A DNA stretch of 64,000 nt from Mesaphorura yosii (lineage: Eukaryota > Arthropoda > Collembola > Poduromorpha > Tullbergiidae), in the NCBI GenBank assembly GCA_009869945.1, contig WIXG01000189.1, positions 90,298 to 154,297 on the forward strand, written 5' to 3'. Positions 18,310 to 57,400 of this stretch are shown piece by piece. The notes beneath the pieces are model-generated. The model was not told where the DNA came from, did no database searches, and worked only from the letters and a program-made list of their open reading frames with translations. The translations under genes were made by a program, and so were the position numbers. Within the stretch, counting starts at the first letter, position 1. Each line of letters opens with the position of its first letter.

Positions 18310-19448
18310 TTAAAGAAGCTGAGTCGAATTCTTAGGAGGTGTTGCTGTTCTTCTGAATTTCGATGATATCTTCACCCTGAGTTTCTTTTTCTTCAATGCT
18401 GTTCCGTCCATCTGTAATTGCTCCTTCAAGTCTTTCAGTTCCAAATCAGGGATGTATCGAATCTCTTCATCTGCTTGCTCGTGTTCCTTTACGGTCAGGG
18501 TCACACCAATTGGCAATGCAGATTGCACGATACTAATAAAAATCGGAAGCATTGTTGTCGGAATATCGCCAAGCTGTTTAAGTTGAAAAATCAGAATAGA
18601 CTACAGGTTAGAATTGAGTCTGAAAATAGTGCATGAGTGCGCGTGTGGATTTAATAGAGTCGTGTGCTTACCTGAACAGTTCGTTCGTAAATGTTGAGCT
18701 GGTATTCTGCGTCCACAACTGTTGTTTCCGGTTTTAGTTTTGTAATCTGAAGCTTCTGTGAAGGGATTCCCCAGCTGAAAATTTAAAGTCATCGGTGACA
18801 TGGAGGGACTTCACACACAAATAGCTAAATTGACAAAACGAAAACATACCAGTCTTCAACGTCAAGACCTATCCGTTCCGCAGTCCTGTGTACAAATGAC
18901 TCGAACTTCTCTAGGACTGGATAATCGTAGCCCTGTATTCGCAAATTCACTAGGTCATAAGTGGGGATCCTGTGACCTTTAGGCTGAAACCATAAACGAA
19001 GATAACAGGTCAGGCCACGGACACATCAGCATCCACCACCGAACTAAGCGACTTTTCTTTAATACTTACATCAAGGTAATCTGGTTCATATATTTTCAAA
19101 ATTTTCGGAGGATCCACTACCACAGGAGCATCGGTCTGTAACAAAAGATGACATTAGTCTTTAGGGTGAACTCGAAGGCAAGCCATTTTTTAAACGAAGC
19201 GAGACTTACCGTCGTGCCCGGCACAGCTACATTACCTTTGGTCTTATCAGCAGGCTATACGAAAGAACAAATCTTTAATTTATGATGGAAACTCGATAGA
19301 AGGAAAGCATTCTACAAGCATAATCAATGAATACCTTTTGCCTGCAAAGAGTAGCGCTATGAATTAGTCGACAGTAGCTGCTCGTCGTATATCTGATTTG
19401 CAATGACGTGAAAGACTTGGATAAGCACCGAAGAATTGATTGTTGCAT
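18310..19448 (-). CDS. mRpL48: Mitochondrial large-subunit ribosomal protein mL48
   Basis: Six exons in minus-strand order: 19448-19335, 19254-19210, 19135-19070, 18983-18850, 18774-18672 and 18573-18310. All phases agree and give about 241 residues. Residues 1-38 form a basic, Ser/Thr-rich mitochondrial presequence (MQQSILRCLSKS, then RLIHSAT). A YEPDYLD segment follows, then the S10-like fold typical of mL48: GYDYPVLEKFESFVHRTAE, WGIPSQKLQITKLKP, YERTVQ, and the C-terminal block SALPIGVTLTVKEH. A basic tail of about 30 residues ends the protein. uS10m is related to this fold, but the VxLxVKEH block and the long C-terminal tail favour mL48. The protein would act in the mitochondrial ribosome large subunit. 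The gene is divergent from Prx5, 572 bp between start codons, and the two share presequence similarity. Confidence 0.85.
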
Positions 19449-20020
19449 TTGTGCTTTTGGGATACTCGTCCGCCTCCGAGCAGGTTATGCCGCCACTTGT
19501 CACGCTGAGCCCTTGAATTCCGCGAAGTGAAAATGCTAAAGACTGGTCACTCGGACCGAGACCACCTCACTAAATATAATGTAGAATCAATCAGGACACC
19601 ACCATCGAACAAATAGAAGGTCAGCAATTCTTCAGCTGTATTAAGTAACACGAACACTTGCGAATTTCCTTGATTCGAAGCTGAAATACAGGATTCCGTA
19701 TATTTGTAAGGAAACAAGGGTCTATTTGAATTGCGAATTCCCTCATTTCTGCACAATGTTCATGAGACACCATGCATCACGAGGAAAGGAACGAGGAACC
19801 TCGCCAATACTATGAAGAAGACGTCTAAACTTTCCATTCCACTTGCAAAATGCGTATTTTTGCACGCTAGTGTCTGTGCGCGTGTAAAGTCAATCAAAAG
19901 TCACGTCAAGTGGTCAAGGCCAAGGACAAGCACCTATATAACTGAGCCCAATTATTTCGTGTTCTAGAAGGACAGACACCATTTTCATTACACCCCTCAG
20001 TCGACCGAACACCGTATCAA
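19449..20020. promoter_or_regulatory. Shared divergent promoter region, mRpL48 / Prx5
   Basis: These 572 bp separate the two start codons of head-to-head genes, so both 5' UTRs and promoters must lie here unless further 5' exons exist. A TATATA run at 19935-19940 lies about 85 bp before the Prx5 ATG. An arthropod Inr-like TCAGT occurs at about 19998-20002. These two are too far apart to be one TATA/Inr pair, so the actual start site is undecided. Confidence 0.45.
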
Positions 20021-20971
20021 ATGCAACAGCAAGTTTTGAGACTTCTCTCTAAGTCATTACAATTCAAAAATTGTTTCAACAGTCGATTAATTCATACGAC
20101 TCGAATCGCAAACATGCCGATAAAGGTGAGTTGCAGTTTTTCTTAATTCAGTACATTCATACATTATTATCAACTAGTCTATTGCAAGACTTTTTAAGTC
20201 CTGTTGGTTTTTAGGTTGGAGATAAGCTTCCCAGCGTAGATCTGTTCGAAGGAACACCAGGAGGAAAGGTTAACATCGCCGATTTGCTTAAGGGGAAAAA
20301 GGTAAGGAATCCAGAGAACGGGATATCGGGAATTGACATAATTTCAGAGCCTGTCTGCACAATTGACATGATGAATAATTTGACTTAAGAACCTACATTA
20401 CAGTTAGCCCATTTTCTGCTTTTGAACAGGCCATCATCTTCGGAGTCCCAGGTGCTTTTACTCCAGGTTGCACTAAGGTAGGTTCCGTGTTCTCCCTAAC
20501 CTTCCTTTCAAGTTTCGTATCAAATTAGAATCTAAATTGAAATGGTAGACTCATTTGCCTGGATACATCCATGACGCTGACGCTATTCGCAAGAAGGGTG
20601 TTGCTGAAATCATTTGTGTGAGTGTGAACGATCCATTTGTCATGGCTGCGTGGGGTGAGGCCAACAAAGCTGGCCCGGCCCAGGTAATGCTGCACGACCT
20701 TGACACATGATATAATTTCATACAATCAATACCCCTTCAATTCTTCCAAAAATTTGTAATTTGCCTGCAGGTGCGCATGCTTGCTGATACAACAGGAGCG
20801 TTTACGAAAGCCATTGGTTTACAAATTGACATGACACCTGTGCTTGGAGGAGTTCGGTCAAAGCGGTACTCCATGATTGTGGACGACGATGTTGTGAAAG
20901 TTCTGGAAGTTGAACCCGATGGCACCGGGCTAACATGTTCGCTGGCAAACAACATTTTGAAGAGTCTCTAA
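20021..20971 (+). CDS. Prx5: Peroxiredoxin-5, mitochondrial (atypical 2-Cys thioredoxin peroxidase)
   Basis: Five exons: 20021-20125, 20215-20301, 20430-20477, 20549-20683 and 20771-20971. They encode 191 residues. The enzyme reduces H2O2, alkyl hydroperoxides and peroxynitrite using thioredoxin. Residues 1-31 are a presequence (MQQQVLRLLSKS, then RLIHTT). A second Met (NMPIKVGDKLP) sits where the cytosolic/peroxisomal form of Prx5 usually starts. The peroxidatic Cys lies in the classic motif GVPGAFTPGCTK, immediately followed by THLPGY after the intron. Other family blocks are SVNDPFVMAAWG, RMLADTTGAFTKAIGL and GGVRSKRYSMIVDDD. The end is LANNILKSL; this resembles a C-terminal SQL/SKL-type peroxisomal signal only loosely (KSL). 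A poly(A) signal AATAAA lies at 21169-21174. Alternative starts at Met1 and Met32 could give dual targeting. Confidence 0.96.
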
Positions 20972-21413: not shown

Positions 21414-21827
21414 TTATTGTTTTCTCGTCACTTGTTTAATCCACTCCAGGTATGGCTTACTGCCCTGTTCAATTGGTAGACCAATCACTTCAGGCACATC
21501 ATACGGGTGGTTTTCTTTAACAAACTTTTCCACGTCATCGAATAGGTGATTTTGCGTTTTAATCATAAGGAGGAGTTCGGAATCTTCATTAATTTTGCCC
21601 TCCCACTCATAGACCGAGGTAATCTGAGGAATAATGTTGACACACGCAGCCAGTTTGTTGCCAACCAAGCCTGGAATCGAACAGTGCAATTTAAAATGTG
21701 TTGACATTTTCTATTTTCAAGTGACGCAAGCTTCCACTGGCTATTATAGCAAACCTTGTGCGATTTTCTTTGCAACTTCAATTGAAGGGGCCGTGACGAA
21801 TACAGCACGAAACGTCGATGCCGCCAT
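21414..21827 (-). CDS. CutA: CutA1-family protein (divalent cation tolerance homologue)
   Basis: Two exons, 21827-21755 and 21670-21414, give a compact protein of 109 residues, the size of the bare CutA1 domain. CutA1 is a very stable trimer with a ferredoxin-like fold. Bacterial members were linked to copper tolerance; animal members have been linked to acetylcholinesterase anchoring, and their molecular role is still unsettled. Hallmarks seen: [15 protein letters not shown] (strand 1), [20 protein letters not shown] followed by EGKI, LLLMIKT, and the C-terminal [16 protein letters not shown] and YLEWI blocks. The donor of its only intron is weak (GTTTGC), but the phase is correct and the protein would otherwise break. 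There is no clear signal peptide or presequence, unlike the long vertebrate form. The gene is convergent with Prx5 and divergent from the CEBPZOS-like gene. Confidence 0.95.
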
Positions 21828-22763: not shown

Positions 22764-22850
22764 AGAATATTTGCGAAGACGTTCTAGTTCTGGTAGCCAC
22801 TTGTACTTGCGGCCCTTGCGAGATCAATATTGTCTCCTTGCTAACCTATC

Positions 22851-23281
22851 ATGTCCGCTGTCCTTAAAATGCTCGCCTACACGATAATTGGAGGTGGTGT
22901 CGGTGTAGCTCTCTTTTCTGTATGTAGACCAAGTGAAGAAGAACTTGAAAAAGTAAAGGCCAATATTGACTCAGTCAGTGAAACTGGTAGATGTTTAGAT
23001 TTTCAAGCTATCTTTTCTGAATTTTAAATATTTAGAAGCACAGTATATATCGTGCAATTCTCATATACCAGTTTCAATTTCTTGCAAATCGACATCAGTT
23101 CTTACTGTATATCCGGATAATCTGCATTTTTCGTTAATAGGTTAAAAACATCGACTTCACCAAACGCCCTACCAGATTTGCAAATAAAAAAAGCGACACC
23201 GACACGGACAACCCATTCTATCGTAAATCACCAGCTGACATGCAAAAACTTGTGACATCACCAGGTGGAAAACAGAACTAG
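22851..23281 (+). CDS. Small single-pass membrane protein, UQCC3-like (tentative)
   Basis: Two exons, 22851-22952 and 23141-23281, encode 80 residues. An N-terminal hydrophobic segment with a Gly-rich core (LAYTIIGGGVGVALF) runs directly into RPSEEELEK, and a polar tail ends NPFYRKSPADMQ, then KLVTSPGG. That pattern (short N-terminus, glycine-zipper membrane helix, then PSEE/PGE and charged residues) is the pattern of UQCC3, an assembly factor of respiratory complex III in the inner mitochondrial membrane. The similarity is short and the identification is tentative. I chose the GTAAAG donor because it keeps phase 0 with the acceptor at 23141. A second in-phase donor-like site lies 24-27 nt downstream. 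The next gene, TBCC, starts 154 nt after the stop. Confidence 0.5.
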
Positions 23282-23435
23282 CAGACATTTGTGATAGTGA
23301 TTGCTGCATTAGGCTTGAACTTGTTGTATTGTGTAGGATTTTATACCTATGCATGTGTAGCACTTTTTATCGTTTAAGGTAAAGTTTAAACTGCTCATTA
23401 GTCGTTCAGAAATTAGAAATTAGTTAACAGTCATC

Positions 23436-24737
23436 ATGGAAAAGAAAAAGAGCCAATTGGCAGATGAGTTCCGAGTAGAGTTTATTACAATTAAGGAGAA
23501 AATTGTGAGAGACACAGCTGAATTAGATCAGGCCCCTGTGGTCGATCTCAAGGAGAAGATAAATTCAATCTACTTGGACATACAAAACCTCAAGGTCAAG
23601 CTCCAAGACTCCAGCAAGTATCTGCCGGCTTACACGTCAAAAGTGTGTGCCGAACCTCAAAACCTCACAACAAAATCAGATTCACTAAGCTACTTTTATA
23701 ACCTTTATCTTGTAATCTTGTTATGCAGTGTCGACAAGACGATTTAAAAGCCCTCGAGGAAGCAATACAAGAAAAAGAAAATCAACTCGTTCCCAAATCG
23801 AAATTTTCCTTCAAAGGTAAACTCCCAGTGCCAGCAAAACAAGATGCGGAGGCATCAAAACCAACAACCCACGAACCCACAGTTGCCACACTTCAAGACG
23901 ACATCAAGGACCGAATTGAACCTATCGGAACAAGGGTAAGACACAAGGCGCATGACGAAATCTTACTAATTAGTAACAAAAAACAATTCTTCTGTCTGTA
24001 TGCGTTACAGAATGATCCGAACTTTCTGACCATTCAACATGATACAATTAGGAGTGGGCAAGAATCCAATAATATGTTCGTGTTCAAAGAAGATAAGTTG
24101 AATAAGATTGATGTTATGGTGCAAGAATTGGACGGCAAGAAAATATGTCTCTTGGGAAGTCCCTCAACTTTGCATCTCTCCAAGTTGACTAATTGCAACG
24201 TTTTATGTAAGCAATATACAATTGCCAGCATGTCAGCTGGTGCTGGTACCACCGGTACCTTTCCGTGCCTGGCATGGTATACATAGTTTACAGTACAACT
24301 TCTACTACACTTCACAGGTGGTCCAGTTCAGACATCCGTCTTCATCGACAAGTGCAAAAATTGCACATTTTATCTGTGTTGTCAGCAGTTGCGCACACAT
24401 GATTCCAGTAACCTGGACATTTACTTACGTGTAAGTTCTCGCGGAATAATAGAAAACTGCTCAAAACTCCGATTTGCGCCTTATGCATGGAATCATCCCA
24501 AGTCATGGGAATTGCACAAAATGGCAAATATCAAAGAAGATTTAGAGAGGTAAGTTGCTGAACAAAATTACGCCAATGTCCGATCTTTCGTCTTTGCCCG
24601 TTCGTGTTTGCCATTTGAGCTGATGGCTACTTTTCATTTGCAGGTTTGATGCTATAGATGATTTCAACTGGCTGGCCTTTACGACACAATCTCCCAATTG
24701 GTCGGTGCTACCAGAAAACGAACGCAAATTTTTTTAG
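23436..24737 (+). CDS. TBCC: Tubulin-binding cofactor C (tubulin-specific chaperone C)
   Basis: Five exons: 23436-23642, 23729-23935, 24011-24206, 24318-24549 and 24644-24737. They give 311 residues, close to the usual size. TBCC acts at the last step of tubulin folding: in the TBCD-TBCE-tubulin complex it stimulates GTP hydrolysis by beta-tubulin and releases the dimer. Residues 1-100 are a charged helical region that fits the N-terminal three-helix bundle. A linker with KFSFKGKLP follows. From about residue 140 comes the C-CAP/cofactor C beta-helix domain: LLGSPSTLHLSKLTNC, GGPVQTSVFIDKCKNCTFYL and CCQQLRTH, whose Arg is the proposed catalytic arginine finger. After these come VSSRGIIENC and FAPYAW. 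The C-terminus DDFNWLAFTTQSPNWSVLPE is typical of the family. It is convergent with NPAT. Confidence 0.95.
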
Positions 24738-48400: not shown

Positions 48401-51400
48401 CTAAGAATTCTTCTTGTATGATTTGTTGTGGGAGTAAAGAAACTATGCGAGTCTCGTCATAATTTCTCCACTGTGTCTTGTCCTTGTCTATTGCTGCTCT
48501 CAAATCTGAACCTGGATCACTTTCCATGTTGTTAAATGTCAAAGAAATGAGAGTTCACGTCGGACTGGCTGAATGGATGGGATGGAGAATGACTTTTGAC
48601 GTGAGCTCATAGTGTGCAAGTTGTCAAGGGTCAGCACGCTGAGCAGAGATGAGATAATAAGGGTGAAATGCCACGCTAAGAACGCATGCACGAAACTGTA
48701 AAGCCAACTTTGGGCGAGGCCCGATTTTTAATGTAATTTCATGTACCCTTATGATAATGGGTTTACGAAGACGCTAGACTCAGACTCTTCAATCATTTTT
48801 GACGCCTGACATGATGCCTTGACTTTGGACTCAAGACGAACTATCTATTAAAATACTTTGACGCGAGAAGGGGATCAATCCATCGTCCAGTATCTGATGC
48901 CTAATCGATGTTTTTTTCTTTCCAGTGACGTGGTCTCTCTTCAGCACTATTACATCCAGCTTCGACAGAATCTTGTCTCAAATCCGAAGCTTGTATCAAC
49001 TAATTTAGCACAAGCCGTGGCATTTGCTGTACAAGCCGAGCTAGGCGACTGGAAACGTAACCAGACCACAACCACAAATATTTCATCAGCATGTTCCTCG
49101 ACGGCAGCTTCAAATTCTTCCCTTTCCTCTAACACAACTTCTGCATCTTCTTCCACGAGTCATTCCATTGAATTTCCAAGTTGGGTCCACTCATTAAACT
49201 TGGACTATGCCGTTCTGACGAGGACGTACTCAGCGTTGGCTGGTCTGGGACAAAATGCGGCCCGCATTGCCTTCATCAAAGCCATGAGCCCCCAGTGCAA
49301 CATGCACCTGTACGGAATGACAATGGTACGCGCCAAAGACGGGAAAGACTGTCCAGCGTGGATTGGTGTGACGCCAAAGGGAATAGAAATCTATCAACAG
49401 GTGAGTGTCGAGTGGAGTGTCGCAAGAGGCAATGCAATAAATTTGGTGTATTTTTGACACCCACTTGAAACTTTCTCTTTGCGATCTGTAATTTCATTCT
49501 CGAGCGCGCAGCAAACCTGTGAAACAATGCGCGAACACGGACGTGCGTAGACGTTGATGGGTTTGCGTGCGGCACTCTGTGCCACGGCCGTGCTATTAAA
49601 CGTTTACAAATTTGGTCTGCGGTAATAAATTATGAATTCTTGATCTCATTTTCTCCTCTCTTCTTCACAGACTGCCACGAATAATAATCACTACCACCAG
49701 ACACATGGCCAGATGAATGGGCAGAATGAAATTCTTGAACAGCCCAGATTCACGTTTTTATGGGCCAACATCACCAAACTTTCTTTCGAGGTAAGTGTGT
49801 GCGTGTGCGCTGCGTACTTAATTCGCTGTCCTGCCTAGTCTGCTGCAGTGAAGTTGAAGTTGAGAATGGATTGTGCATTGTATCGTAATAACATGATTAG
49901 TGATCTGGCATTGCAATGCAGATGCAGTGTGTACATTATTAATATCACTGCAGTTTGGAATGCAGCACCGGGCATTGTCATGTGGCTACGAGTTTACGAG
50001 TACGAGCAGTAATGAAATGAAATATCCAACCATTGTACTTGAAACATGCTTGCTATTATTGTGTAAGAGAGTAAGTCAGTCAAGAGAAGCTCAGAGATTG
50101 ATAGTTGACCCTGATTCATGAATATTTAATTTATCTATTAAATCACAGACTTGTCAAAATCTCTCTTACTTGATTTGATTTTGTATACTTTCATCTTCCT
50201 TTGTTACCTGCTGCTCGTGCTCGTCGCTCGTACAATTCAGGCAGGCAAGGCAATGACAAGCAAGAAAGATTGTTGAGGCATAGCTTTAATTACAATTTGC
50301 ATGGGGCAAAGCCAGCATTGTTTGGGATGCGATTGTGTGAGACGTTGACTATAATCAAAGTTTCGTTAATTTTATCACAGAGAAAGAAGTTTGAGATTCG
50401 TGGCAGAACTCTAAAGTGTTCGTGTGGGACCACAACCGAAAAGCTGACGTTTGTCGGAACCAGTGAACTTGTGCCCAGACACCTTCTCCTACTTTGTCGC
50501 TCCACACATCAATTTTCACTCTCAACTGCTCACTCGAAGCTGGAACAACTCCAGGCGCATCTTCTGGTGACGGCCAACAATCTGAAGGGCTTAAGCAATA
50601 GTACAAATGCTGTAAACAGCCAGCACCAACACCATCACTCTTCATTGACCGGAGGACTGCTTGGGAGCAGCAACGATTCGCTCCTTCAGCACGCACATAA
50701 CTTGAATTCCTCTTCAGCGTCCAAGATGAATGATGAGAAAATGTTGGATTTGTCGTTACTGGATTATGGATTATTGCTTGGGAGCAGCACTGGAAGTGAA
50801 TCCAATGATCATCAGCGAGTTTCAGTCATTAGCAACGCTTCTTCAAACACAACTTCGGGTAAGTACAAATCAGAACCAAGAACTAGCTTACAGGATAGAA
50901 GAATGGTACTAGGAATGCATATTCCACTTTGTGTAATTCAGGTAATTACTAACAGGAAGGAATGAGTATTAGCTAAAAAGTAATGATTAAAAATTACAAT
51001 TGAAATTATTCTAAGCTACCCACCGTGTCCATTAACTCCGCCCCGACCTAGACCCTTAAAATTGTAAGCACCAGTATTACGCTTGAACTTGTCTTCAATA
51101 ATTTTTTCGTTTTTATTTGCCGAAAGCTTGTGTAAAATTGTCATTTTCCCGATATCACGTCCAGTTAGTTGATGTTCATAGGAAAAGTGTACATCAGAAT
51201 CACGTCGAAAGTTGTCTGGATCATGATTTGTTGAAATGAATTGACGAATTTCTTGTGATAAATACTTCTGCGGCTTTCCACCTCCTGAAGTGTGTGACTT
51301 CGTACCGTCGAAATGGTGTAGAACACGTTGGTGCACGTTTCCTGTTGATCCAGTGTGGTTGGCACGTTCGCCTGATTCTTGACACGCGTGGCAGTGTAGC

Positions 51401-54400
51401 ATGTACACTACGCCAGGAGTGCCACTGGTGAATCTCTTGTCCAAAATAATCTTTTGTTCATAGCCATAATCAACTTCCGACGAATCAGTAACCACGTCTC
51501 TTAGAAGTCATTCCGCCTGCCTGCACCAGAATGTTCCAGCACCGTAATGCCCGAGCGCTGCGTTTTCGTTGATCAGGTTCCTAAACCTGGAAATATAATA
51601 ATTATAAAATTGCACTCATTTCAATCTGATCATGGTCTGGTTGTAGTAGTTGATCATACTTACCTTGCTGCGATATATTTCTCGTTCAAACTCAGTGATG
51701 GTTCTCCTCCAGGAAGTTGTGTATATGGCTTCAAGTCTTCCTGGAACTTGGTGACATGTAATTTTGGCGCCCAGTTTCCTTTCGATCAATATTTTCTTAA
51801 CATCACCAGACAGAATTCGCCTGAGAATTCTGTTTCAATCTTGTCCCGTTTACAGTCTCCAGAAATTGAAACGGATAATTTCTGATCATTGCTCTCCATT
51901 CCGTGCTTAAAGCGGCGAAGGATGTTCTTTTCTACTGATGTGAAACTGGTTTTAGATTTCGCAGATGCTTCGGTGAACGGGTTGGGCACGTTTCTCTTCC
52001 ACGTTGTGTACTATGAAGCTTTGATTATGATTACGCTAGCAAATGAGCTGTTCGTTTTTTAAATTGTGACTTACGTGTTGAGGGGTCTTCAAATATCGGA
52101 GCGCCTCTCTCGGTGTCCCGTTGCCAAAATGTAGCCAGTCAGGCATAAACAGTTGCATTGGAAGGTGGTTTGTTTGTCTGATTAGCTTTCTCAGTAATTT
52201 CAGCTGCTAATTTGTTCCTTTTTGGAGTTCTAATAACTTGAATTGCTCTCATAACGTCGTCGCATGTTGATAAAGCATCAATAACAACGCTGCGCCCCTA
52301 TCTCACTTGTCTTCTTTTGAATCTTTGGTGGCGGGGTGTCCGGCACAGCCTGGCCAGGTTCAGTAGGCACTAGTCTTCCCTTGCTTCAGCCATCAAGTGG
52401 AATTGGAGCTTCGTCGTTTGTTGGATCTTCTTCAGCACAGTCTAACTCGCCTAAATGGCTGGCGAAAATCCTGTTAAGAATTCGTGCCGAAGCAGGTGAC
52501 GACATTCTCAACAATATTTGGAAATTGTTCGATCAATTAGCGTAATCAGTGCAACTCTGGTAAATGAATAACAACTGAATTGAACCGAGTGTGCAAACTA
52601 AGCATGTTTGGACCAAATTAAATAACAAACGTTTTCTTTCAAACAAATTACGCCGTGGCCAATCAGAGCGTTGCAGTTATGGAACTTGATGTCTGATTGG
52701 TTCTCAGCTATCATTGGAATTTCATTGATTGATGTAACTATGATTCATGGAATTATCATTAAATTTGGTTGTTTCAGGCATTGTGTCGGATCGAGTCTAC
52801 AGCCTGGATGGAAGTGAGGGTAAGAGCGATAACTTGAATTAGGACCGATGAAAACATAATTGTAAACTTAAATCTGTACATCTCCACTGGAAATGTCAGG
52901 TTGGAAAGCGCAGTTTTTGCTCCACAACAATTTACATATTTTCACGATGATGGATGTGCTCGCGGACGGAGCAATAATGTAAATATGATTGTATCGTAAT
53001 TGCATATTACGCGTGCATCCAGACATCCATCAAATTCTGTAGAATTGTTCAAGAGGTCACGTCACGTCCTCGCATTATGTAACAATAATAATGACAGGGA
53101 AAATTGAATATGCCGTGAACTGCATTGCACTGCATCGCTGCGTGTTCCATGACTGACTTCATTCCAGCAGAGATGGAGATGCCTTTGAGTTGTAAAGATT
53201 ATTTCTGCTTGCTGGATTTGAATGGACCCTTCTTAGACTCTTTTCATGATTTATATTAACGTTTGTACGGTATGCTATATGCTGAACCTTGTGCATCCAG
53301 AAGAGCCTTAATCCTGCACTTTTCCTGATGCACGCACTGCACGATACGCAGTTCCATTGTTATGAACACTATTTACATATGCCCTTTCTGATGGTTTTTT
53401 CCTGCAGAAGAACTGGATTTACGAGAAGCAGACTGCTGTTCGGAGCATGCAGCCTCACATCATAACACGAATAATTCTACATCTTTGGAGTCCCTTAGTC
53501 AGAAACCACCACCTCCAACTTTTCCAAGGTTGCACAATGCCCATCATTTGTCAACCAGCAATGGAGCTACTACGTCGAGTACGGCTTCATCTGCAAAGAG
53601 GACTGCAGCAGAAACGACGGTGAGCACGCAGGGTATAGCAGAAGAGGAAGCGAAGTACTGGTACTGTGGCTCAGACTGTGAGGACTGTTGCGAAGAGGCT
53701 GCAGCAGCAGCTGCAGCTGCCGCTTCATCGTCATCGGTAACTGGATCGTGTCGATCACTTTTAGTGCGAACAATCGGCGGTGACAAGCCATCGCATTCCT
53801 GCACAAATAGTGTCAATGGACAGTGTGTGTGCATTTCCTGTGCCTTTGAGGAAGATGATCTGGACGGGCTGGATTTAAGCGACAATAACCCCACAAGCAG
53901 CCTTCCAGTGCATCACCACCATCACCACAACAGCACTCCGTCGATGGCCAGTGAAGCGACTTTGAAGGCAATCGACATTCTGTCCGACAGTTGCAGCGTA
54001 CACACAGTCACGACTGAGAACGGTTTGCAATACACCAGCGAAATGCGACTCGGCAACAGTGAAGGCGAGAGAGTTCATACTGGTGAGAAAGTAGCAATGA
54101 CTGGAACACAAGAAAGCTCTCACGAAAAGCTTGTGTACGGGAAAACCAGCGAAACTGAGCCAAACATGCAAGCGCAGAAAATGCCAGTTCCGAAACCAAG
54201 ACTGACAAAGACCCAGCAAGAAAGTGCAGCTGAGGACAACCCACAACTCTCTCACTCAAAGCCCCACCAGAATGTCACAAGTAACATAAAGTTAATGAAT
54301 GGAAAGGATATCATTAAATGTAGACATAAGAATCACTGTGCTTCGAGCAATCCTGATGCGCCCTCAAAAACCCTCGCACCGAAGGAAAGTGAATGTTTGA

Positions 54401-57400
54401 CAACCAAAATTGCTTCAAGAAAGTGCCTGAGAACCCAGCGAGACTCGCCGATCACCAGCAATTGGTTGATCAAGTCGTCATCAGAAAACCAAATCAACAA
54501 CAGTAGCAATGGTCTTAATGGAGATAAGTTCTTAGGCGTTAAGTCCAAGAAAATGACAGCCGTGTGCGCATCAGCGTCGGGCCTGGGTGGAAGCGGTAGG
54601 AAGAAACAGATGAGGGATGAAACCGACTCTGCTCCTACGATTGTGCATAACAATAGCATAAGTGCCTTAAGCAATACGAATGGTAATCTGAATTACAGTG
54701 ACCTGGACATGCAAGAGAGACTGCTCCACCAAGGACGCTACCCGTGCACTAGAACCGTTAGTGATACCTTTGACACTGATTCCGACTATGTACAGCTACC
54801 ACCGCTTAAGCACCGGTCAATTCCACATCCGCCACCTCCGCAAAATGTGCGCGGACTGAATAAGAAGCAAAGTGGTGCGTCAAACCGTCCGTCATCGAAA
54901 TTGTGGAAGTTTGTCACAGGAAACAAATCGTCTGCATTAAACAAGAGTTGCGGGAATTTGAACTTGATGAGCAATTCTGGAGAATCTATCGGAAACCGCG
55001 GCATACCACCGCAAGCACCAGCAGAAGCAATAACAGATGACAACACAGCTTCCATGCCCAGGAGATTCAGCCAGAATTTGCCGCTGGAAGGCAAGGAGCT
55101 CCACAACATTAAAAAGGCCTATAAATTAACGTCGAGGTCTACAACAGCTTTAAACCAAATTACGAACGAGGACGATGTTAGACCTGAGCCTCCACCGAGA
55201 CCAAAGAAACTGACCCCTGGAGTTGAGCTCTTGGCTTCAATGGCTGCCAACACCACCACCAGCAAAGGTGCTCTTAAGACCGATGGCAAAGCTGTAGATG
55301 CGCGCATTATTGCGACCAAACCTCAAATTCTCATACAAACTGCATATGCGACAGCAGCCACGATAGCTAAGCCCAGCCAGGCGCAGGTATTGTTTCGAGA
55401 ATCACAGATTCCAGTCAGTGGAGTTCCGTCAGCCACACCAGGTGCGCCACCAACAGTGCTGACAGCAAGCGCTAGGTCGAAGTCACAAATTGTATCTCCC
55501 ACACACGAGACTGGTTTGTACCACTCCCAGAGTATGGACAACATCTACGACACGGTGGCCACCGAAGACCCGGTGACACCCAGAAGACCCAGATCGCCGC
55601 CACCACCATTGTACCCAAGGTCAGAGAAAACTAAGATGGCATCAGCCGCAGCCAAGAACAAGGGAAAGGCTGCGCCAATGATTATCCGGTCAAATAACTA
55701 CATTGATGTCCACGCATCAGCTGCAGTTAGACAGAAGAGAGCCGTACCACCACCAAACACACTGAACAACTCGTCATCAATTATTGGGAGTGGGTTAAAG
55801 CGTCCTGTCAGCGACCCGATTCCAAATAATCGTTTCGGAAGTGTGCCTGCAATTAACAACAATTTTATGCATGGGCTGTTGAACATGAAGCCTCTTTCTC
55901 GAGCTCCCATTGTGTTTCCCAATAACTCAGCTAATCAGCAGCAAGGAGTTGGAGCTGCCAGTTCTGGTAACGTCAACGCCAGCCCTGCAGCTCACACTTC
56001 AGCTCCAGTAACTCATCCACTGAAGAATCAAATGACGTCGGCTGCAAACGGTGCGCCGAACTCTGGAGCTGGGGTCCAGCAGAAAATTTACACAAGTCAA
56101 CTTAACCGCTCCCAGATACAGCACTTTAAGGCTCAGTTGTATTCAGACACAGATTATGTCACGTTTCCCTCCAAGGATCCACGGTTAAGCCAGCAGGAGT
56201 ATTTCGATTCCAAGAGTCTACATTATACTCCTACTTCGTCAAGTTCTGGAGTTAACGGCAATCCTCTTATAAATTGTCTTAGCATGAGCACGCCATACTC
56301 GCTTAACGACTATCCACCTCCATATTTGCCACCGCCGCCACCCTATCCGTCAACTCCGACATCGTCAATGCACAATAACGGCAGCAGCAATAGTGCCAAC
56401 AGTCCCAACAACAGAATGTCAACCAGTTCCGGCGGTCCAGTTTCACAACTGCCTTCCTACCAAGACGCGGCCGCGGCGTCGTCTCAATCGCTGTACAACG
56501 CTGCAATGAGTTCGAATACGTCTCAGTGCTCCTCATCGCAGTATGGCTACTATGCGATCCGACCAAATTCTCACCCTCCCCAGGCACAGCCTTGCAATGG
56601 TTACGGCCCCGGCATGGCCGTCAACGGCCTCCAAAGTCATCTCGGACTCAATGCAGAAAACCTGCAAAGATTCCTCTCAACACAAAGCCTGATGGGCGGC
56701 TCCGGTGCTGGAAGTAACAACAGTAACAATAACGTCGCGTCCACGACACCGGTGTCGATTTACTACGCAGCTTCGACCCAGTCCGCTCCACCATTACCAC
56801 CCTATAAAGATTCGGACCAGCTCATAATCGAAAATGGAATGAGGAAAGCTGTTCACAAACTTCTTGCTTCTAGTCATCTGAAACCCTCGGACTTGCTGGA
56901 CCATCAGGAAAGAATTAGGCTGAAGCTGTGTCGCTCGGATGATTCTTTGTACACACAACCAACGGCAGAGACCGAGCAAACACTGCAAGCAATTTACAAT
57001 CTTCCTCCACCTCCTCCTTACAAACGAACCTCGGTAGGTTTTTCTTTTTATAGCAAACAGATCAAAATCTCAAACTCGAGTTTCCTAATTGCCTTATCTC
57101 TTTGCAGCTGATGTCTCCGAGTGATGTTGACCTGATCAAATTGAGAGCCAAGTGCAGCGCGATGGAGCTGCCATTGTTGAAGGCGCTCTGTAGCGAAACG
57201 GATTTGTTAACACAACAGAAACAGCAGGTAGTACAGTCGAGACTAGGGAATAGTCGCGGAGTGCGCCCAGCGGCTCATGCACACCCAACTCCAAACACGA
57301 CTCCCAGATCATCGCTCACACCCATGCCAGTACCTTCCCAGCAACAGCAGCAACTGCCCAAATCGCTCCTAGAAAATGTCCCTCTCCAAGTCCCACCTGC

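Follow-up and report, generated by a model that had tools for sequence, protein, structure and literature searches.

Mouse L-Prx V loses its mitochondrial presequence in two steps: MPP makes a first cut and MIP then takes away a further octapeptide, in keeping with the R-10 rule, R-X↓(F/L/I)-XX-(S/T/G)-XXXX↓ (PMC7996597). In human, a figure legend places two in-frame ATGs in exon I of PRDX5, a gene whose neighbour TRMT112 runs in the opposite direction, and targeting of the protein to mitochondria is described as apparently conserved among animals (PMC3759418). In plants, rice rps11 and cytochrome c1 are cited as genes that gained their presequence when an exon was duplicated or shuffled (PMC2031878).

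The window analysed here, a 64-kb stretch of DNA from the collembolan Mesaphorura yosii with a G+C content of 41.4%, carries the genes mRpL48 and Prx5, whose first coding exons encode similar mitochondrial presequences (Table 1). mRpL48 is made of six coding exons on the minus strand, with its stop codon ending at 18310, and Prx5 of five on the plus strand, reaching 20971. Joined together, the later exons of mRpL48 encode a Ribosomal_S10/mL48 protein (Pfam Ribosomal_S10, E 1.4e-18; PDB mL48, E 9.1e-18) and those of Prx5 a Redoxin/peroxiredoxin-5 protein (Pfam Redoxin, E 1.4e-34; PDB peroxiredoxin-5, E 3e-61). Both gene names, assigned in an earlier note from the letters alone, fit these matches, and the coordinates, frames, peptides, splice phases and quoted DNA of that note were all correct when checked again. 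The same note had proposed an inverted duplication of a promoter-proximal exon, by which one gene would have received a ready-made targeting signal from the other. The evidence leans against such an origin. With a probability of roughly 0.65, the likeness reflects convergence on the rules of import and processing together with some coincidence, a reading that is favoured over an ancient duplication.

Table 1. Features of the mRpL48/Prx5 gene pair, in window positions
Feature	Position	Strand	Details
mRpL48 coding exon 1	19335-19448	-	38 codons; ATG at 19448; MQQSILRCLSKSFTSLQIRYTTSSYCRLIHSATLCRQK then GTATTC donor
mRpL48 later exons	19210-19254, 19070-19135, 18850-18983, 18672-18774, 18310-18573	-	
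Weaker, R-10-like motif for the processing of mRpL48 (RLIHSA)	19353-19370	-	motif scan
Inverted repeat arm 1, within mRpL48 exon 1	19358-19375	-	18 nt, 16/18 identical
Spacer between the divergent start codons	19449-20020		572 nt; head-to-head genes
TATATAA upstream of Prx5	19935-19941		found by eye
Prx5 coding exon 1	20021-20125	+	35 codons; ATG at 20021; presequence and MPIK; MQQQVLRLLSKSLQFKNCFNSRLIHTTRIANMPIK then GTGAGT donor
Inverted repeat arm 2, within Prx5 exon 1	20079-20096	+	18 nt, 16/18 identical
Two-step processing site predicted for Prx5, RL↓IHTTRIAN (R-10 motif)	20084-20113	+	motif scan
Second in-frame ATG of Prx5 (MPIK...)	20114-20116	+	sequence
Prx5 later exons	20215-20301, 20430-20477, 20549-20683, 20771-20971	+	

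Compared with mouse L-Prx V, the Prx5 presequence likewise has Arg at -10, a hydrophobic residue at -8 and Ser/Thr at -5, and its predicted mature end similarly falls where the short form begins. The hydrophobic residue is Ile here whereas it is Phe in mouse, and the first residue of the mature protein, Ala in mouse, is predicted here to be the Met of MPIK (PMC7996597). As in the human PRDX5/TRMT112 locus, exon I of Prx5 includes the targeting sequence and a second ATG, and the neighbouring gene runs in the opposite direction, but this neighbour is here mRpL48, itself a gene for a mitochondrial protein (PMC3759418). Since exon I of human PRDX5 carries both ATGs in the figure legend, the Prx5 first exon looks ancestral by this comparison and need not be a borrowed one. 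With rice rps11 and plant cytochrome c1 the locus shares the idea of a targeting signal copied between genes; unlike these plant cases as they are cited in PMC2031878, it displays neither flanking homology nor a donor-recipient polarity.

In Prx5, RL↓IHTTRIAN↓MPIK is a strict match to the R-10 rule, written as R-X-(F/L/I)-X-X-(S/T/G)-X4 before the mature end, and the predicted site ends directly before the second in-frame ATG, which is likely the start of a short, non-mitochondrial form. Judging from the sequence, MPP would cut after RL and MIP would then take off the octapeptide IHTTRIAN, leaving a product that would start at MPIK, as would the short form from the second ATG. Because the site ends just before this ATG, the short form would be almost the same as the mitochondrial product, as is the case in mouse. 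The pattern has low stringency, as Prx5 matches it strictly once more, at residue 7. Unlike the R-10 presequence described for mouse L-Prx V (PMC7996597), mRpL48 has Ala at -5, so RLIHSA fails the strict rule and matches a loosened pattern only; a strict match at its residue 7 (RC↓LSKSFTSL) is probably spurious. Both presequences are basic, each with six K/R and no D/E. Their best amphipathic moments over 18 residues (0.40 and 0.39) are not above those of shuffled sequences (P 0.16 and 0.32), so that the argument for an import helix is one of composition only.

The two presequences are collinear, aligning with one gap of three codons and one of two, and BLASTP finds 16 of 31 columns identical (22.7 bits, E 1e-5 for a single comparison). 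Their protein Smith-Waterman score of 50 was reached by none of 20,000 full shuffles, by 2 of 20,000 half-wise shuffles and by none of 20,000 block shuffles. As the shuffles are beaten and the exons are mutual best DNA matches, the likeness of the two presequences, on which the earlier note had built its proposal, is real and above simple chance. That both exons end at a phase-0 Lys is correct as well (the Prx5 junction reads K|VGD) and has little weight as evidence, since AAG followed by GT is the usual context of a donor site. A phmmer search of the presequences alone against PDB chains returned nothing up to E 10, a result that says little because the filter removes short, weak matches.

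A presequence-aware null was built from an informal set of 76 comparison presequences (61 human, 11 yeast and 4 fly), which give 2850 pairs, or 2832 once 18 orthologous ones are set aside. A score of at least 50 was found in none of these 2832 pairs (highest 48; P 1.8e-4 from a Gumbel fit) and in 5 of 100,000 Markov-simulated presequence pairs. The mRpL48/Prx5 pair is thus a rare one, at roughly 1 in 6,000 to 1 in 20,000 per pair, and the best score of either member with the 76 comparison presequences is no higher than 28. R-x-[FLIVY]-H is present in 10 of the 76, against 1.6 in shuffled ones, a count of 10 being reached in none of 1000 shuffles. [LI]RxL is found in 13 against 5.8 expected (3 of 1000 shuffles), and LRxL[SAG], with 2 against 1.7 expected, is not enriched. 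Among random peptides with the composition of the two exons and carrying R-x-hydrophobic-H-[STA]-[STA], 104 of 50,000 pairs scored at least 50. When LRxL[SA] was added, 530 of 50,000 did so, a simulation that is generous to convergence because LRxL[SAG] shows no enrichment in the comparison set. The chance of reaching the pair's score among motif-carrying random peptides is consequently 0.2 to 1% of pairs. In a motif-filtered comparison set (11 sequences, 9 passing the filter, 36 pairs), one pair scored 62, presumably the human and fly ATP synthase alpha orthologues, and the next 43. A likeness this good could then easily arise when the choice ranges over numerous gene pairs and numerous ways of being alike.

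Under convergence, both first exons would encode ordinary cleavable presequences of two unrelated proteins. Shared needs of import (absence of acidic residues, with Arg/Lys interspersed among Leu/Ser) and a common matrix-processing motif, R-x-hydrophobic-His-[S/T], would lead to similar peptides, on top of which MQQ and a run of 14 nt that differ at a single position would be extra coincidence. The likeness in RLIH[ST] would have a selective reason, judging from its match to a processing motif, and the excess left to be explained shrinks to that extent. Convergence of this kind would show how far short targeting peptides can look alike without common descent, and that any claim of homology should first be held against a presequence-aware null.

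In the DNA, the stretches quoted as alike in the earlier note are present. They lie in an 18-nt inverted repeat with 16 of 18 nt alike, and 14 of 15 nt are identical in GTCGAYTAATTCATA, found in both exons, but the meaning of this likeness was overstated, a short likeness of this kind being by itself at chance level in 64 kb. The window has 5 inverted pairs within 1.2 kb that score at least as high as the 18-nt core, against 5, 9, 6, 5 and 5 in the randomised controls, which were five Markov windows only. Of the ungapped inverted pairs at distances up to 1.2 kb, the best lies near 23243 and 24228 and scores 30, against 26 for the first-exon pair. Local alignment of the two first exons against a shuffled background sustained the claim of similar DNA: none of 10,000 codon shuffles reached the whole-exon score of 167, and 34 of 10,000 reached the score of 26 for the core under a stricter scheme. 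When both strands of the window were scanned at step 3 (about 42,500 stretches per exon), the exons were each other's best match (167). The margin is small, as the next best stretches score 153 for the Prx5 exon and 147 for the mRpL48 exon. With a coarser tiling in which the mRpL48 exon is split, its tile ranked fourth of 2238 against Prx5 (135, after 151, 148 and 142).

Inverted likeness of the 5' flanks was equalled by 322 of 1000 shuffles over 150 nt and by 89 of 1000 over 285 nt, and that of the first introns by 940 of 1000. Within the exons, identical codons are used at 7 of 15 identical residues against 4.6 expected (P 0.13). Third positions match at 16 of 32 sites of the whole alignment against 10.5 expected (P 0.029), and at 11 of 26 against 8.4 (P 0.18) without the RLIH core. 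By segment, these matches amount to 3 of 9 in the N-terminal part (2.88 expected), 7 of 11 in the middle segment (4.0 expected), 5 of 6 in RLIH[ST][AT] (2.1 expected) and 1 of 6 in the tail (1.5 expected). When all nucleotides are counted, 51 match over the whole alignment against 43 expected (P 0.019) and 21 in the middle segment against 14.5 (P 0.005), and no other result speaks as strongly for shared DNA as this last excess. When codons were resampled 5000 times with the peptides held fixed, 52, 235 or 389 trials reached the observed DNA score under three scoring schemes (52 under the whole-exon scheme), codon usage being taken from mRpL48, Prx5 and five long stop-to-stop ORFs with a clear family match for CutA1 alone. 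The DNA excess beyond the peptides (P 0.01-0.08) is a small and weak residue favouring shared descent, weakened by the fact that similar DNA was part of what first drew attention to the pair.

That mRpL48 long ago received an inverted copy of a part of Prx5 exon 1, by duplication or gene conversion, stands as a tentative second reading, unlikely on balance. Silent and non-coding sites would since have decayed while selection kept the targeting peptide, and two unrelated mitochondrial proteins of this animal lineage would share a homologous presequence. Prx5 could be the donor, as its exon with two in-frame ATGs is common to human PRDX5. Such a copy would account for the mutual best matches of the exons in the window, for the collinear peptides with their gaps of whole codons, for the slight DNA excess beyond the peptides and for a score that none of the 2832 comparison pairs equals. 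It accords poorly with flanks and introns that lack likeness, with N-terminal codons that agree at chance level and with an 18-nt core that is expected by chance alone and whose peptide is a recurrent processing motif. Presequences normally diverge fast, and a copy keeping 16 of 31 columns with its N-terminal codons scrambled would need strong selection on exact residues. If the copy were real, it would be a transfer of a targeting exon from neighbour to neighbour in an animal and would show how presequences spread between genes; no such animal case was among the matches listed from the open-licence literature, by titles and the starts of abstracts, and its absence from print is not claimed. 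Pattern searches for relatives gave three stretches in viral contigs for Prx5, and five in viral contigs and 26 in prokaryote genome contigs for mRpL48, none of which was confirmed by tblastn.

A recent inverted exon duplication that gave one gene a ready-made signal, closest to what the earlier note proposed, is highly improbable. The near-identity of both exons over GTCGAYTAATTCATA speaks for it, but a recent event predicts shared silent sites, 5' UTR or intron, whereas the flanks and the intron show nothing and the N-terminal codons agree at chance level. In addition, Prx5 need not have gained its signal here, as the mitochondrial targeting of PRDX5 is described as seemingly conserved in animals (PMC3759418). 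The shared 14-nt run might otherwise be a DNA element, such as a regulator site, lying inside both coding sequences, which is very unlikely too. With up to two mismatches, TCGAYTAATTCATA occurs only at these two places of the window, but two matches are what chance gives (mean 1.44; at least two in 47 of 100 shuffles), and the run sits in coding sequence and in the same frame in both genes. As a regulatory element it was rejected, its count being equal to chance.

Scans of the whole window for tRNAs and Rfam families gave no matches. On the plus strand, a small ORF at 22845-23027 resembles UQCC3, a factor for the assembly of mitochondrial complex III (E 0.0026, below the cut-off), and is therefore a third possible mitochondrial gene near mRpL48 and Prx5. 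An exon of the CutA1 family (21417-21710, minus strand; E 8.9e-34) is convergent with Prx5, and the stretch at 23424-23744 (plus strand) is like the N-terminal domain of tubulin-specific chaperone C (E 7.3e-6, with a score just under the cut-off). A possible FERM-domain gene lies at 48852-50962 on the plus strand, where successive ORFs match FERM_M (E 1.7e-4) and FERM_C (E 0.039), both below the cut-off. It is followed by an open stretch of 1239 aa (53392-57108) that has no Pfam match at E 0.001. A 163-aa ORF on the minus strand (51019-51507) has, by eye, a GIY-YIG-like start (VVYMLHCHAC...TGSTGNVHQRVLHH); its Pfam matches to DUF7848 (E 0.0092) and GIY-YIG (E 0.33) fall short of the cut-off, and it is perhaps the remnant of a mobile-element endonuclease.
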